DNA from: Fidelibacterota bacterium | GTDB taxonomy: Bacteria; Fidelibacterota; Marinisomatia; Marinisomatales; TCS55 | Assembly (NCBI GenBank): GCA_004124385.1 | Contig: SCKN01000004.1 | Span: 62,001 to 126,000, forward strand | DNA: 64,000 nt | Direction of reading: 5' to 3' | Shown: piece by piece, positions 7,156 through 16,965 of the stretch | How the letters are laid out: each line of letters starts with the position of its first letter | Numbering within the stretch: the first letter of the stretch is position 1 | Notes under the pieces: model-generated | The model's input: the letters and a program-made list of their open reading frames with translations, nothing else | What the model was told of the DNA's origin: nothing | Databases searched by the model: none | Program-made: the position numbers and the translations under genes

Positions 7156-8646
7156 TTAAAACTCAAAAAATTCCCAATAAATATCAATATATGGCTGTTG
7201 AAAATGAATGCCAAAACGAAAATTTTCATTAAATGCATAGAGAATTCCAAAATCAAAATCAATTAAGCTAGCATTCCCTTCTACAGAGTCAAAGGTTAAG
7301 GAAGGTGAACCATCTGATCCAGTATAATCTTCTAAAACTTTTGATAACTCTAATGTTTTATAGCCATTATCTATCCAAATAGAGGCCACCAATTTTAGTT
7401 CTTTTCGCAAATCATAATCCAAGGCCGCCCAAAGACGAAAAGGTACTTCATACAATGATTCTTTGCTCCATGTATATCCTTCATTTAACCAATCATTTCT
7501 TCCAATGAATGCACTCGAAATTTTTCCACCGACTGTCCATCCGACTTTACCACGCCCTGTTGGATTTACACGTTGAGATGTATATACCAAATACGCTTCT
7601 ACGTACTTTGGATTTTTTGATCCATCTACAATAGCATCATCGACATTTAATGAAATATTTTCATTAAATGTCGTAACGGTACCCGCAGAGTCGGTATAAT
7701 TAATAGCATGGGAATATTTTCCAATAATTGATTTCACTGGATAAGCTCGATGGAATCCTAAACCCCAAGCAATACTTTTTTCCTTTTCTGCAGTTTTTTT
7801 GTGATAAAAACGCATTTTTGGATGAAGGTTTAGGTCACCCGCAAAATTTGAACCAAATTTTGTAGTAATCATAAACCGATCTGTTAAACCGTATCCAATT
7901 GACATACCGCTTAAATAAAAAGTATTGCCTTCCAGTGGATTTGCTGTTGGGTCCAGAAACACACTAATTAATTGTTCTTCACCGACGTAAAACCTTCTTC
8001 GCTCTTCTGTTTTTTTATCCAGGATTCCACCATGATATCGTTTCATTCTTTCAATTTCACGTTTATGGATAGTAGCGTCACCATAAACAGTCCGTAACTC
8101 AAAAACTTCATTTGTTTCAGATAATACTGCACCAACGTATACTTCTCCTTTCTTATTGGTGATTTCTGCAGTTTCTGCTAAAAATTCGCTTTTTGGAATT
8201 ATAAATTCACCTGATTTTGTTTTAAGAGTCACATTACTATCAAGATCGGCCGTAATTGTTCCCTCTCTTATAGATCCATCCCGAAAATGGAAACGCTTTG
8301 ACATACCTTCTTCCAATACGCTGGCAGCAAGCAGCAATTTCTTTTGTTTTTTACTTTCGATTGTTTGTTCTTTTTTAATTTCAACTTTCTTGATTACTGG
8401 CGGAGTAATATTGCCCTCCTGAAAATTCCGGATTAATTTTGCCCCCTGACTTTGAGTCAATTGGCTAAGTTGTACACCGTATTCGCCAATTAAATAATTC
8501 TGTAAAGATGCTTCGCTAAATCCACTCTGGAAGGATAGTTCGCGAATTGCTTTTTGCTGTCCATCAAAGATGGGAGTAGATTGGGCAAATAAAATTGCAC
8601 TTATAGCAACAATTACTAAAAAGTTAGATAATCCTATGTTTTTCAT
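7156..8646 (-). CDS. Exported protein with two beta-barrel-like modules and a predicted outer-membrane barrel
   Basis: A 496-residue protein with an N-terminal signal peptide (ILFAQS at about 22). A basic linker at 85-105 is followed by two tandem small modules (117-159 FRDGSIREGTITADL; 162-205 KKGEVYVGAVLSET), each with the pattern G-x4-G-x-I/V and a strand ending in T-x-x-G. Residues from about 215 to 496 alternate in hydrophobicity and end in EFFEF, suggesting an outer-membrane beta-barrel with a terminal aromatic. An AAGGAGG ribosome site precedes the ATG. It is divergent from the HTH-PAS gene across 90 nt. No named family is recognised. Confidence 0.7.
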   Translation of the reverse strand: MKNIGLSNFLVIVAISAILFAQSTPIFDGQQKAIRELSFQSGFSEASLQNYLIGEYGVQLSQLTQSQGAKLIRNFQEGNITPPVIKKVEIKKEQTIESKKQKKLLLAASVLEEGMSKRFHFRDGSIREGTITADLDSNVTLKTKSGEFIIPKSEFLAETAEITNKKGEVYVGAVLSETNEVFELRTVYGDATIHKREIERMKRYHGGILDKKTEERRRFYVGEEQLISVFLDPTANPLEGNTFYLSGMSIGYGLTDRFMITTKFGSNFAGDLNLHPKMRFYHKKTAEKEKSIAWGLGFHRAYPVKSIIGKYSHAINYTDSAGTVTTFNENISLNVDDAIVDGSKNPKYVEAYLVYTSQRVNPTGRGKVGWTVGGKISSAFIGRNDWLNEGYTWSKESLYEVPFRLWAALDYDLRKELKLVASIWIDNGYKTLELSKVLEDYTGSDGSPSLTFDSVEGNASLIDFDFGILYAFNENFRFGIHFQQPYIDIYWEFFEF

Positions 8647-12985: not shown

Positions 12986-15900
12986 TTACCAATCCGTACC
13001 TAATGAGAAGTAATACTGTGGTTTAGAGTAACCTGATTCATTGATATCCCAGGCAGAATCAATCCGTAGTAAAAAATAACCCATGTTTATTTTCATGCCC
13101 CAACCAAAACCGGCTATGGACTCTTCAAATTCACTTCCTTTATCCCATGCTGTTCCAATATCAAAAAATAAATGGGATCCCAGATTACTTATCATGAATT
13201 TTTCAGGAACGCCTAACGCTAATAAAAATGGGAAACGAAATTCAAAATTAGCGAGCGCAACATTTGAACCCACTTGTTCCATATAACGACGACCGCGAAC
13301 GGGGACGACAAATTCAGAAAAGAAAACATCCTCGAGATCATTTTCACCATCGAGCAAATTATTACGAAAATGGCTATTATCTTTTACGCCATCCGTTTCA
13401 CCTGTACCATAAATCCAGTTTTGCAATCCACCCAAATAGAATTTTTGTTTATCAGCTCCGCGACTGGTTCCCAGGGTTAATCTTCCGGCTAAACTAGAAT
13501 ATCGTCCGATCTTATAATATTTTCTGAAATCCATTTTAAGCGTTTTGAAATCCATTTTTTTACTGCCCCATCCAGGACTGACAACCAACGTCGTGTTTTG
13601 GCGAAAACCATCAATTGGCCCGGTGTAACCATAAACAGTATTATCATACACCCAACTGGTGACAGGTAGTACAACGGAAAAGTCCTCATTGGATACTTCT
13701 TCAAATTCATAATAATTAACTTCCTGCCATTCGCTAAAGGAAAAATAATGATATGACAATCCTCCTTCAACCCGCATAAAACGACTAAAGGGATGGGATA
13801 GATAACTCATTAAAGAAAAGTTTCTTAAGAGCCCACGATGCTGATAGCCATTCATATCATACCCAAGAAAATATTCGTTCGCTATATGTGAAATAGAAAA
13901 ATAATAATCTGTGGGCCTGGTCAGATAAGCATAACTGAAAAAGTAATCACTACGTTTCAAATCGATGACCATTTCAGTCCCAAAATAAATTTGGTGATCA
14001 CCCAGAATATCACTAAATGCAAACATTGTCATTCCCTGAGCGCCAAATACATTATTAAAAGATGCATAGCCATTGACTAAATCCAGTGTAAATCGCGTTT
14101 TATATGCTTTGGACACATAACCTTCATCCGTTAAATCTGTCGTATCCTTAACAAAGTCGGCTGAAGCATCTTCTGGTGTTTCCATGGGCTGATTAAAATG
14201 ATCATATTCTCTGGCAAAAATCCATCCCTGATAATCCCTGCCAGTCGATCTACCCGTACTCCATTGACTTCTTTTATGTCGCCTTAAATCTATTAAATCT
14301 TCAGATACATTATCTTGATTCATGATGTATCGTGTAGGTGGGACTTCCATTGCGTCTTTTTCTAAAGGATGGCTCATGCTATAAACATCCCAACCCATAT
14401 CGGCATAGCCGGCAAATACTAAATAATCATCATTTTCTGTAAGGCTCAATTGAAATACGCCTGTTAAAATATTGGTCAATGCCACTGGATCCGAATCCGG
14501 TTTATATCGATATATATTCCAAACACCGCCATCATCAGAGACATAGAATAGTGTATTTTTTTCAGTGTGAGACCAAATTGGATAATCTTCATTGTGGTCC
14601 GTATCTGTTATGCGGCTGATATTTCCAGATGATAGATCAATTGCATAAATATCTTTTTGAGAAAAATCATGTTCTATGATTGCTTCCGGTGGCTGTAGTC
14701 CGGCAATATCCCCATTACGGTCTGATACAAATACCAACACGGAGCCATCATTATTCCAAGACGGTTCAGAATCGGAATAAATATCACTTGTTAAAGCAGT
14801 CAGTTTTTCCTCATCTATATTATAAACATAGACGTCACTGGCACCGTCCTTCGTTCCAATAAAAGCCAGTTGATTTCCATCGGGACTCCATGCAGCGGTA
14901 AAAATCCCATCCAGATTAAACGTAAATTTTTCTTTCTTTCTCGTTTTTACATTAATCAAATACAACGCATCCGATTTACCGGCCTTTGCAGCAATGACGA
15001 TTCGTTTACTATCCGGTGACCAGGAAATTCCGGGCTGGAGTAATTTTAATTCTTCAAAATCTACAGATCGATTGCCTTTTACCAAGCGTCGTATTTCTTT
15101 ACCATCAATTGCATCTAAAACATAAATATCGAAATAACCTGACCGATCTGACAAAACTGCAATTTTACTGCCATCGGGTGAAACTGCTGGAGAAATATTA
15201 TAATAATTCTTTTCTTTTTTATGATCAGTCAAACGTTTGGCAATGTCTTCAATCTCATCACGTCCGACAACATCCGGCCAATATTCCTTTTTCAAATATT
15301 TATGCCACTGCTTGGTTAAATCTTCATAATCCATTCCCAATGCTCGTTCAATCCCTTTTTCGGCATTTTGGGTCATTTTCATAGCAGTGATGATTTCACC
15401 AATCTTTTCTCGGCCGTACTTTTCAGCAATAAATCGCCAGATGGATTGACCGCCTTTATAGGCCATATACGATTCCAGTTCTTTCACTGTGGGCATACGC
15501 TCATTAATGGAAAGGTCGCGCAAAGTCATATCCGCTTTGGTATCCCAATTCATAGATAAATATTCAGCCAAGCCCTCATTTGCCCATAATGGAATTCTTA
15601 ATTTAACCCGACCGGTAATGATGCTTTGAATATTACCATCATAAATCATATCATTTAAAATTGCGTGTACAAGCTCATGGTGAATGACATGGCGGAATTG
15701 TTCATAATCCCCTTCGAAAGGTAAGACGACCCTATTTTTAAATAACTCTGTTACACCTCCAATTCCTTCCCGCATATACTGCCAGATAACATTTGTTTGC
15801 TGAAAATCATTGTGTGAATAGTATACAATAATGGAAACACGTTTTTTTAATGTCCAGCGCAAGTGTTTGGAAATTTGCTCATGGGCTTTTTCAGATACTT

Positions 15901-16087
15901 CAGCAGTGAATTCTGCTAATTGAGTATCTTCTCCATAATAATACACATCAAAGTTTGGAGATGAAATCAAGGACCAATCGAATTCCTTGTATTGTACCTT
16001 ATTTTGTCCAAAAGATTGGGCGAACAATCCTTCAGCTATTAGAAATAAAATGAAAATGATTTTACGCATGTGTAAAATTACGTCCAT
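12986..16087 (-). CDS. Gluzincin-like protease domain - TolB-like propeller - outer-membrane barrel fusion
   Basis: This 1033-residue exported protein has three parts. After a signal peptide (RKIIFILFLIAEGLFAQS) comes a peptidase-MA-like domain with HHELVHAIL (137-141 zinc site) and the downstream glutamate in WANEGLAEYLS (about 171). Residues from about 290 to 600 hold TolB/PD40 blades such as VSPDGSKIAVLSDRSG and WSPDGNQLAFIGT. The rest, to a terminal Trp, resembles an Omp85/BamA-family barrel (LFFDIGTAWDKG near the end). It is probably outer-membrane anchored with the protease and propeller exposed. Substrate is unknown. Start may be the ATG at 16069, just before the signal peptide. It is divergent from the lpxH-like gene. 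Confidence 0.75.
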   Translation of the reverse strand: MDVILHMRKIIFILFLIAEGLFAQSFGQNKVQYKEFDWSLISSPNFDVYYYGEDTQLAEFTAEVSEKAHEQISKHLRWTLKKRVSIIVYYSHNDFQQTNVIWQYMREGIGGVTELFKNRVVLPFEGDYEQFRHVIHHELVHAILNDMIYDGNIQSIITGRVKLRIPLWANEGLAEYLSMNWDTKADMTLRDLSINERMPTVKELESYMAYKGGQSIWRFIAEKYGREKIGEIITAMKMTQNAEKGIERALGMDYEDLTKQWHKYLKKEYWPDVVGRDEIEDIAKRLTDHKKEKNYYNISPAVSPDGSKIAVLSDRSGYFDIYVLDAIDGKEIRRLVKGNRSVDFEELKLLQPGISWSPDSKRIVIAAKAGKSDALYLINVKTRKKEKFTFNLDGIFTAAWSPDGNQLAFIGTKDGASDVYVYNIDEEKLTALTSDIYSDSEPSWNNDGSVLVFVSDRNGDIAGLQPPEAIIEHDFSQKDIYAIDLSSGNISRITDTDHNEDYPIWSHTEKNTLFYVSDDGGVWNIYRYKPDSDPVALTNILTGVFQLSLTENDDYLVFAGYADMGWDVYSMSHPLEKDAMEVPPTRYIMNQDNVSEDLIDLRRHKRSQWSTGRSTGRDYQGWIFAREYDHFNQPMETPEDASADFVKDTTDLTDEGYVSKAYKTRFTLDLVNGYASFNNVFGAQGMTMFAFSDILGDHQIYFGTEMVIDLKRSDYFFSYAYLTRPTDYYFSISHIANEYFLGYDMNGYQHRGLLRNFSLMSYLSHPFSRFMRVEGGLSYHYFSFSEWQEVNYYEFEEVSNEDFSVVLPVTSWVYDNTVYGYTGPIDGFRQNTTLVVSPGWGSKKMDFKTLKMDFRKYYKIGRYSSLAGRLTLGTSRGADKQKFYLGGLQNWIYGTGETDGVKDNSHFRNNLLDGENDLEDVFFSEFVVPVRGRRYMEQVGSNVALANFEFRFPFLLALGVPEKFMISNLGSHLFFDIGTAWDKGSEFEESIAGFGWGMKINMGYFLLRIDSAWDINESGYSKPQYYFSLGTDW

Positions 16088-16224
16088 ACCTCATTAGAGT
16101 TCCAGCAACTAAACATATTCTTAATTTTCTTTTGATATTGTGCAATTAGACTACTTTTAAAACAATAAGTTAAAGTGCTACAATTCCTTTGCCTATACAT
16201 CCTCAAAAAAGTAAGTTTCTGTGT

Positions 16225-16965
16225 ATGCAATTGCCCGTCTATTTTATTTCCGATATTCATTTAATGCTTCAATACGATGAGCAAGAAAAGAAACGTCAGG
16301 AAAAATTGTTTCGCTTCATGGATTTTGTCGCCCAATCCGGAGGCACATTATTCATCATTGGAGATTTATATGATTTCTATTTTGAATACAAACATGTAAT
16401 CCCAAAAGTTTATTTTCCCTTTTACCAAAAATTATTTAGTTTAAAAAATAGCGGTGTAGACATTCACTTTATTACAGGCAATCACGATCATTGGACAATG
16501 GATTTCATGGGTGAAACTCTTACGACAAAAGTGTATTTTAATGATGTGTCCATTGATATTCATGGAAAACGATTTTACCTAACACATGGCGATGGCATTC
16601 TTTCCTGGGATCGAAGTTATCGAGTGTTAAAAACAATTATACGCAGCAAACTTTTTATTTGGCTGTATCGTTGGCTTCACCCAACGATCGGTTATGGAAT
16701 TGCTCACGCTATTTCTAAAAAAGGTCGACACTATAACCATTCTAAAGAATACAATGAAAAAGTTATGAGCGAATTAAAAGTCTTTACAGAAACAGTTGTG
16801 GCGGATGGTCATGATTACGTTCTTACTGGCCATTATCACCAGGCAAAGATTGAAAATGTGAATGGCGGGAAGCTGGTTGTTCTGGGTGATTGGCTACAGT
16901 ATTTTTCATATGCTATTTTTGATGGGAATAAATTAGAACTCAAATTCTGGGAAGAAAATGCGTAG
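16225..16965 (+). CDS. lpxH: UDP-2,3-diacylglucosamine diphosphatase-like metallophosphoesterase
   Basis: Probably hydrolyses UDP-2,3-diacylglucosamine to lipid X, the fourth step of lipid A synthesis, at the inner face of the inner membrane. The 246-residue protein shows the calcineurin-like motifs in order: FISDIHL (Asp10, His12), IIGDLYDFYFEY, TGNHDHW, LTHGDGI and TGHYHQA. The GDLYDFYFEY and GNHD forms are those of LpxH-like proteins in the Bacteroidetes group. I chose the ATG at 16225; a TTG at 16189 would add residues not seen in the family. Its stop overlaps the next gene by 8 nt. Confidence 0.85.
   Translation: MQLPVYFISDIHLMLQYDEQEKKRQEKLFRFMDFVAQSGGTLFIIGDLYDFYFEYKHVIPKVYFPFYQKLFSLKNSGVDIHFITGNHDHWTMDFMGETLTTKVYFNDVSIDIHGKRFYLTHGDGILSWDRSYRVLKTIIRSKLFIWLYRWLHPTIGYGIAHAISKKGRHYNHSKEYNEKVMSELKVFTETVVADGHDYVLTGHYHQAKIENVNGGKLVVLGDWLQYFSYAIFDGNKLELKFWEENA

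Follow-up and report, generated by a model that had tools for sequence, protein, structure and literature searches.

The window analysed here is a 64,000-nucleotide stretch from a Fidelibacterota bacterium (contig SCKN01000004.1, positions 62,001 to 126,000 of the forward strand; the phylum is referred to below as Marinimicrobia). On its minus strand lies a gene predicted to encode, in one chain, a signal peptide, a zinc protease, a TolB-like β-propeller, a disordered linker and a C-terminal outer-membrane barrel of the Omp85 type. Its features are as follows, with coordinates counted from the first nucleotide of the window and residues numbered along the whole reading frame.

12986-16087, minus strand: the whole open reading frame, 1033 residues as read.
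16019..16069, minus strand: signal peptide, Met7 to about Ala23, a hydrophobic stretch with its cleavage site placed by eye.
15278..16000, minus strand: zinc-protease domain (gluzincin, or peptidase MA), residues about 30-270, from the match to Pfam PF13485 and the predicted fold.
15665..15679, minus strand: HELVH (HExxH), residues 137-141, the putative source of two zinc ligands and the catalytic Glu, from the alignment.
15560..15580, minus strand: NEGLAEY, residues 170-176, with E171 as putative third zinc ligand, from the alignment.
15458..15460, minus strand: Tyr210 of the AYKGG motif, from the alignment.
14354..15250, minus strand: TolB-like (PD40) β-propeller, residues about 280-578, from the PD40 match and the model.
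14105..14326, minus strand: disordered, charged linker, residues about 588-661, from low model confidence and low conservation.
14216..14224, minus strand: linker motif W622-I-F624 (aromatic-x-Phe, resembling a β-signal), from the alignment of orthologues.
12989..14104, minus strand: 16-stranded Omp85 barrel, residues about 662-1033, from the strands of the AlphaFold2 model, the Pfam Omp85 match and profile comparison.
13289..13300, minus strand: VRGR, residues 930-933, the counterpart of VRGF/Y in loop 6 of Omp85 proteins, placed by the model between strands 11 and 12.

The open reading frame is not a chance frame, since a profile of the family matched 147 of the 149 genomes sampled across the phylum (E ≤ 1e-60), mostly at full length although contig ends truncate many of the matches, and 103 positions of a 41-row alignment, in which some rows duplicate one another, showed the same residue in 40 rows or more. 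When only good assemblies were counted, 83 of 84 matched. The best match reached E ≤ 1e-150 in 143 genomes; four others had weaker best matches (G231, G279, G283 and G286, 1e-91 to 1e-109), possibly to a fragment or a paralogue, and G045 and G287 gave no match to the profile. The first-pass annotation had described one chain of about 1030 residues, which agrees with the 1033 residues as read and with the 1027 counted from the probable start, the ATG at 16069. This codon is the likelier start because the frames of the closest homologues open just before the equivalent of Met7, which lies only one to three residues inside them. Directly after the signal peptide, the mature N-terminus bears a conserved FGQNxVQYxxFDW.

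The first-pass annotation also named three domains and their families (zinc protease, TolB propeller, Omp85-type barrel), and these proved correct on the Pfam scores and an AlphaFold2 model. The full-length model, made with 14 sequences, has a mean predicted local distance difference test (pLDDT) score of 67.7 and shows peptidase, propeller, low-confidence linker and barrel in that order. Pfam Peptidase_MA_2 (PF13485) matched residues 78-266 at 48.6 bits (cut-off 32.4). Modelled in isolation, the peptidase domain reached a pLDDT of 83.6. Its model aligned with M9 collagenase (Z 17.4, root-mean-square deviation (rmsd) 3.9, 232 residues aligned), M30 lugdulysin (Z 15.6) and M1 aminopeptidases (Z about 12 to 14), and the same families came top in a Foldseek ranking. 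From these matches, the predicted fold of the N-terminal domain is of the gluzincin type. The HHELVH and NEGLAEY noticed in the first reading stand at residues 136-141 and 170-176, and Tyr210 occupies what we take to be the position of the transition-state tyrosine in M1 and M61.

The PD40 match of the propeller had an E value of 4.8e-25, and the modelled domain aligned with TolB (2w8b_B) at Z 25.7 and rmsd 2.4 over 245 residues (VIA-align). It is not TolB itself: the NCBIfam TolB equivalog score was 148 bits, below the cut-off of 343.15.

The C-terminal domain had been described as a barrel with an aromatic end, for which comparison of a predicted structure with BamA was proposed. The last residue is Trp and the model gives 16 strands of at least seven residues spanning residues 666-1030; when aligned with BamA barrels it reached Z about 20 to 21, with rmsd 4.2 to 5.4 over about 300 residues (VIA-align), so that the C-terminus comes out as a BamA-like barrel. 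In a search of the whole genome, Pfam Omp85 matched residues about 802-1033 at 42.4 bits (cut-off 24), and an NCBIfam scan gave a weak BamA match (E 0.005). Two results count against Omp85 membership. A plain Pfam hmmscan of the window protein found no barrel family at E ≤ 0.1, and just one of the 14 members of sequence set A1 matched Omp85 at E ≤ 0.01. Loop 6 provides a further mark of the family, as R931 and G932 were present in at least 95% of aligned orthologues, and RG in all 40 of a further Marinimicrobia set; the fourth residue of the motif is variable and is Arg in the window protein.

Profile comparison within the window genome points the same way. The profile of orthologue barrels aligned along the whole barrel with the TamA-like protein (E 7e-8, probability 92%) and matched another Omp85 protein, L059, at E 3e-6. 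It did not match the fifth Omp85 protein, L060 (E 0.8), or the negative control, an outer-membrane protein encoded at 7156-8646 on the minus strand of the window (E 0.95). The control is itself a putative outer-membrane protein, with a DUF5777 barrel match that was only sub-threshold. POTRA families were not found in the window protein (Pfam, E ≤ 0.1) or in the 14 members (E ≤ 0.01), the N-terminus being occupied by peptidase and propeller, and the Pfam matches at E ≤ 0.1 contained a peptidase family rather than patatin. By sequence and prediction, the protein is a member of the Omp85 superfamily in which POTRA is replaced by a zinc protease and a TolB-like propeller.

Between propeller and barrel, the linker is the least conserved part of the protein after the signal peptide. 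Its pLDDT was 22 to 35 in most 10-residue blocks, and its median length was 86 residues in Marinimicrobia and 108 in Bacteroidia. One feature within it is nevertheless well kept. F624 was present in at least 95% of aligned orthologues, and Marinimicrobia typically have DYSxYIF where Bacteroidia have INNYxF, with YIF and YxF falling on the same alignment columns. The pattern [FYW]xF occurred in 118 of 129 linkers, against 34.3 expected from shuffled linkers, a contrast that is inflated by kinship among the proteins (rows shorter than 850 residues were excluded). By group, the counts were 57 of 61 in Marinimicrobia (16.2 expected), three of five in Ignavibacteria and Kapabacteria (1.9 expected) and 58 of 63 in Bacteroidia (16.2 expected). 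This aromatic-x-Phe resembles, in sequence, the end of the β-signal of outer-membrane proteins.

Conservation of the active site differs sharply between groups. H137, E138, H141, E171 and Tyr210 were all kept in 62 of 62 distinct Marinimicrobia proteins (loci from homologue searches plus 40 chosen stretches, minus duplicates; not a random draw) and in all five proteins from Ignavibacteria and Kapabacteria. In contrast, HExxH was not found anywhere in residues 1 to 330 of the 65 Bacteroidia orthologues read, which comprise 29 of the top matches of the class search, 34 others chosen from the same list, L045 and L046 (66 rows, one of them a C-terminal fragment of L125). The residue aligned with E171 is still Glu in some of these, and Tyr was not among the six commonest residues at position 210. 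In a tree of 83 proteins, built by a quick method and of unsure root because the chosen outgroup was split across it, 34 Bacteroidia orthologues formed one clade (Shimodaira-Hasegawa-like approximate likelihood ratio test (SH-aLRT) 99) and HExxH changed once. This single change indicates that, as far as alignment and tree can tell, the active site was lost once, on the way to the Bacteroidia orthologues, rather than by scattered decay. The first-pass annotation had made its case depend on the presence of the zinc ligands in orthologues, which holds for all 62 proteins read from the window's phylum and does not hold for the 65 read from Bacteroidia. As Bacteroidia retain the protein without HExxH, proteolysis alone is not the constant role of the family; judged by conservation, the protease site of the window protein is real, yet it is not a constant part of family function.

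Orthologues were also present in records of Ignavibacteria and Kapabacteria, and in a sample of the class of Reichenbachiella (G061), which we take to be Bacteroidia in GTDB, 124 of 149 genomes matched at E ≤ 1e-30. At least three of these matched through a paralogue only (G107, G147 and G212), and G181 probably did too, its stretch (L113) being without the N-terminal half of the gene and its class assignment a guess. The Bacteroidia paralogue keeps HExxH in five of five proteins (L112 and L114-L117); the sixth, L113, is without that region.

In genus g22, with streamlined genomes of 0.7 to 1.0 Mb, the family profile matched all 12 genomes sampled, and the zinc site was intact in the two proteins read (L181 and L183). 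Eight of these genomes, 89 to 98% complete, were checked for other envelope factors. Pfam Omp85 found one protein of about 800 residues in each, taken to be BamA, together with the orthologue's barrel in four (44 to 59 bits, above the cut-off); in the remaining four the gene was recognised by the family profile. Further Omp85 proteins, TamA-like ones included, were not found by Pfam Omp85 in any of the eight, nor was an M48 protease, and TamB was above its cut-off in one, over a short stretch, so that no stable pairing with TamB is supported. Each of the eight encodes two Trypsin_2 (DegP-type) proteins. At this completeness a single absence is weak evidence; the pattern nonetheless repeats. 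Elsewhere, a genome of about 1.0 Mb carries a copy of the gene with two in-frame TGA codons (G302:C1:72014-74929), for which sequencing error, decay or recoding might account.

The retention of the whole protein in 65 Bacteroidia without HExxH raises the alternative of a pure assembly factor or scaffold resembling TamA or BamA, with the protease fold a recruited binding module and catalysis secondary everywhere. The conserved RG of loop 6 and the TamA-like protein as best barrel match in the window genome are in keeping with this, as is persistence of the gene in the eight g22 genomes, which have no TamA-like match and of which just one has TamB above its cut-off. However, the zinc ligands and Tyr210 have been kept across the deep divergence between Marinimicrobia and Ignavibacteria/Kapabacteria, so catalysis looks to be under selection in both, and we regard this alternative as rather unlikely, although the most serious of those considered.

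Topology bears on the remaining choice. Both ends of a 16-stranded Omp85 barrel face the periplasm, and protease and propeller should therefore hang below the membrane. The first-pass annotation had offered two functions: that the barrel secretes or displays the protease, or that the protein is a combined processing and assembly factor. The former would be a type V-like secretion, with the protease carried through the barrel and displayed at the cell surface, for which a single chain with a signal peptide and a long flexible linker able to span the pore would be suited. There is a precedent in PlpD, long viewed as a type Vd system that exports its enzyme, but its enzyme domain has since been shown to stay in the periplasm (PMC11116518). 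In addition, loop 6 occupies the lumen of the barrel, through which protease and propeller could pass only after unfolding. With the barrel ends in the periplasm as well, secretion or display is very improbable, and the second of the two functions is the better supported.

The preferred reading is that of a periplasm-facing, membrane-anchored factor for outer-membrane assembly or quality control, ancestrally a protease and in Bacteroidia a pseudoprotease. Taken jointly with membership of the Omp85 superfamily, it is given a probability of about 0.5. Protease and propeller would remain in the periplasm beneath the barrel, where the propeller may dock an envelope partner or substrate. The barrel would handle outer-membrane proteins, possibly with the aromatic-x-Phe of the linker at its own lateral seam or that of BamA. 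The protease might clip stalled or maturing clients, by analogy a built-in counterpart of BepA at the β-barrel assembly machinery (BAM). Bacteroidia would keep the binding and assembly functions and do without catalysis.

Several observations weigh against this reading. The active site is the feature that hints at quality control, and the largest sister group lacks it. The AlphaFold2 model does not place the linker with confidence, so a role for its motif stays a proposal. The window genome has five Omp85 matches, among them a BamA-like protein (808 residues) and the TamA-like protein (623 residues, adjoining a TamB match), names that come from Omp85 and TamB matches plus reading of the sequences; since it also has TamB and an M48 protease, functional redundancy is possible there. 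An hhalign comparison of the orthologue barrels with the genome's own BamA-like protein was weak (probability 20%, E 2e-4). Finally, the BAM complex of Flavobacterium johnsoniae, described in 2025, consists of BamA, D, G, H, M and P, and does not contain a protein of this type (PMC12611786). A place for the window protein as a subunit of that complex was rejected: the words peptidase, propeller, PD40, metalloprotease and WD40 are absent from the main text of that paper.

A fixed partner gene belonging to the envelope machinery is also missing, and this too weighs against the preferred reading. One neighbour is on the opposite strand.

16189-16965, plus strand: LpxH-like phosphoesterase gene adjoining the gene, with scores below the LpxH equivalog cut-offs.

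Of 20 loci compared within the Marinimicrobia order, 19 have an LpxH-like gene on the opposite strand, 19 have tgt and 15 have radA. A NUDIX gene that adjoins tgt in the window lies about 2.7 kb beyond tgt in L036. In Bacteroidia, a different gene family is on the opposite strand in 15 of 20 loci (L150-L169), 1.6 to 3.4 kb upstream of the midpoint of the orthologue; its product is presumably a hydrolase of the metallo-β-lactamase fold. As the neighbours in the Marinimicrobia order differ from those in Bacteroidia, a conserved partner gene was rejected. Seven distant loci (L040-L046) have, besides the gene, just two homologues in common with the window, one in L041 (54% identity) and one in L042 (30%), and in the window each of the two is over 9 kb away from the gene. 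In four of the 20 Bacteroidia loci (L152, L159, L161 and L163), the orthologue has, no more than 10 kb away, open reading frames that resemble the type IX secretion proteins PorV and PorU. Identity with PG1058 of the type IX system was set aside, its domains being different.

The frequency of the LpxH-like neighbour (19 of 20 loci) would fit a protein of envelope-lipid or lipopolysaccharide homeostasis, by analogy with PlpD, rather than a factor for outer-membrane proteins. One Ignavibacteria locus, with an AsmA-family protein encoded two genes upstream, could be read likewise. That protein has 1493 residues (L040:1388-5866), and L043 and L044 have open reading frames of 1494 and 1492 residues in the corresponding position. 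However, the neighbour scored below both LpxH cut-offs (93.5 bits against 134, and 79.6 against 190), it is not a neighbour in Bacteroidia, and the protease domain has no obvious lipid substrate. A lipid role is therefore considered unlikely.

Two further proteins of the window genome look similar in the order of their parts.

L055:181-3138: paralogue of 986 residues, with the motifs HELQH and EGLAEY found by eye.
L056:603-3545: paralogue of 981 residues, with the motifs HEFAH and EGSAQY.

PD40 was present in both, and neither was matched by Pfam Omp85 in the search of the window genome. L056 likely has the same architecture as the window protein, judged from its sequence: Peptidase_MA scored 27.7 bits (below the cut-off of 32.4) and the barrel profile gave E 7e-6. 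L055 had no Peptidase_MA match, a barrel-profile E of 0.71 and a sub-threshold NCBIfam trace of Omp85 (E 0.002). With two extra proteins that combine the motifs and PD40 in one genome, the architecture is probably that of a small paralogous family there.

A bolder version of the preferred reading is conceivable, although we hold it only tentatively. The protein could be a second, ancient, near-universal and seemingly unstudied Omp85 machine of Marinimicrobia and Bacteroidota, a one-chain unit for assembly and proofreading that is regulated by an internal β-signal-like peptide. Genomes of about 0.9 Mb would have kept it with a BamA-like protein as its sole Omp85 companion, and in Bacteroidia it would have become an assembly factor that is a pseudoprotease. 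How outer-membrane proteins are assembled in bacteria other than Proteobacteria is only now being established, as the recent date of the F. johnsoniae complex illustrates (PMC12611786). Near-universal presence in the phylum sample, matches in most of the Bacteroidia genomes sampled (some by paralogue) and retention in small genomes without TamA-like or M48 matches mark the protein as a possible core factor of the envelope that has been overlooked. Since the active site was lost naturally in one clade, a ready-made test exists of which role is indispensable.

Parts of this architecture are known. A WD40-Omp85 subfamily, with which the window protein shares a TolB-like propeller preceding an Omp85 barrel (as predicted here), was listed in 2014 and likened to a BamA-BamB fusion (Heinz and Lithgow, PMC4104836). 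The word 'peptidase' occurs 0 times in the main text of that survey, whose supplementary sequences may include the window protein, and its 'metalloprotease' class is PF00149, which in Pfam is Metallophos, a phosphoesterase family. Beyond this survey, no title or abstract in the literature searched, a scope outside which subscription journals and preprints fall, described the architecture. The propeller-barrel combination is thus already known; the literature searched yielded no mention of the protease domain, of its near-universal retention in the phylum sample and loss in one clade, or of the linker motif.

TolB has the same propeller fold, which in the window protein lies between a peptidase domain and a barrel. 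TamA and BamA share with it the barrel fold and the RG of loop 6, the TamA-like protein of the same genome being matched by its barrel profile, and differ in that no POTRA was found in the window protein. PlpD is a lipase and not a protease, has a POTRA domain and is not known to carry a propeller. Like the window protein, this patatin-Omp85 protein combines an enzyme domain on an Omp85 barrel with a β-signal-like peptide near the barrel, and its lid peptide, Ile-Ser-Phe, binds strand 1 of its own barrel (PMC11116518). The nearest functional parallel is BepA, because there a separate M48 protease degrades stalled proteins at BAM; it is a protein of another peptidase family, whereas the protease of the window protein is fused to the barrel. 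BepA carries TPR repeats. Its clients are outer-membrane proteins stalled at BAM (PMC13067283), and what it has in common with the window protein is an HExxH zinc protease at an Omp85 machine.

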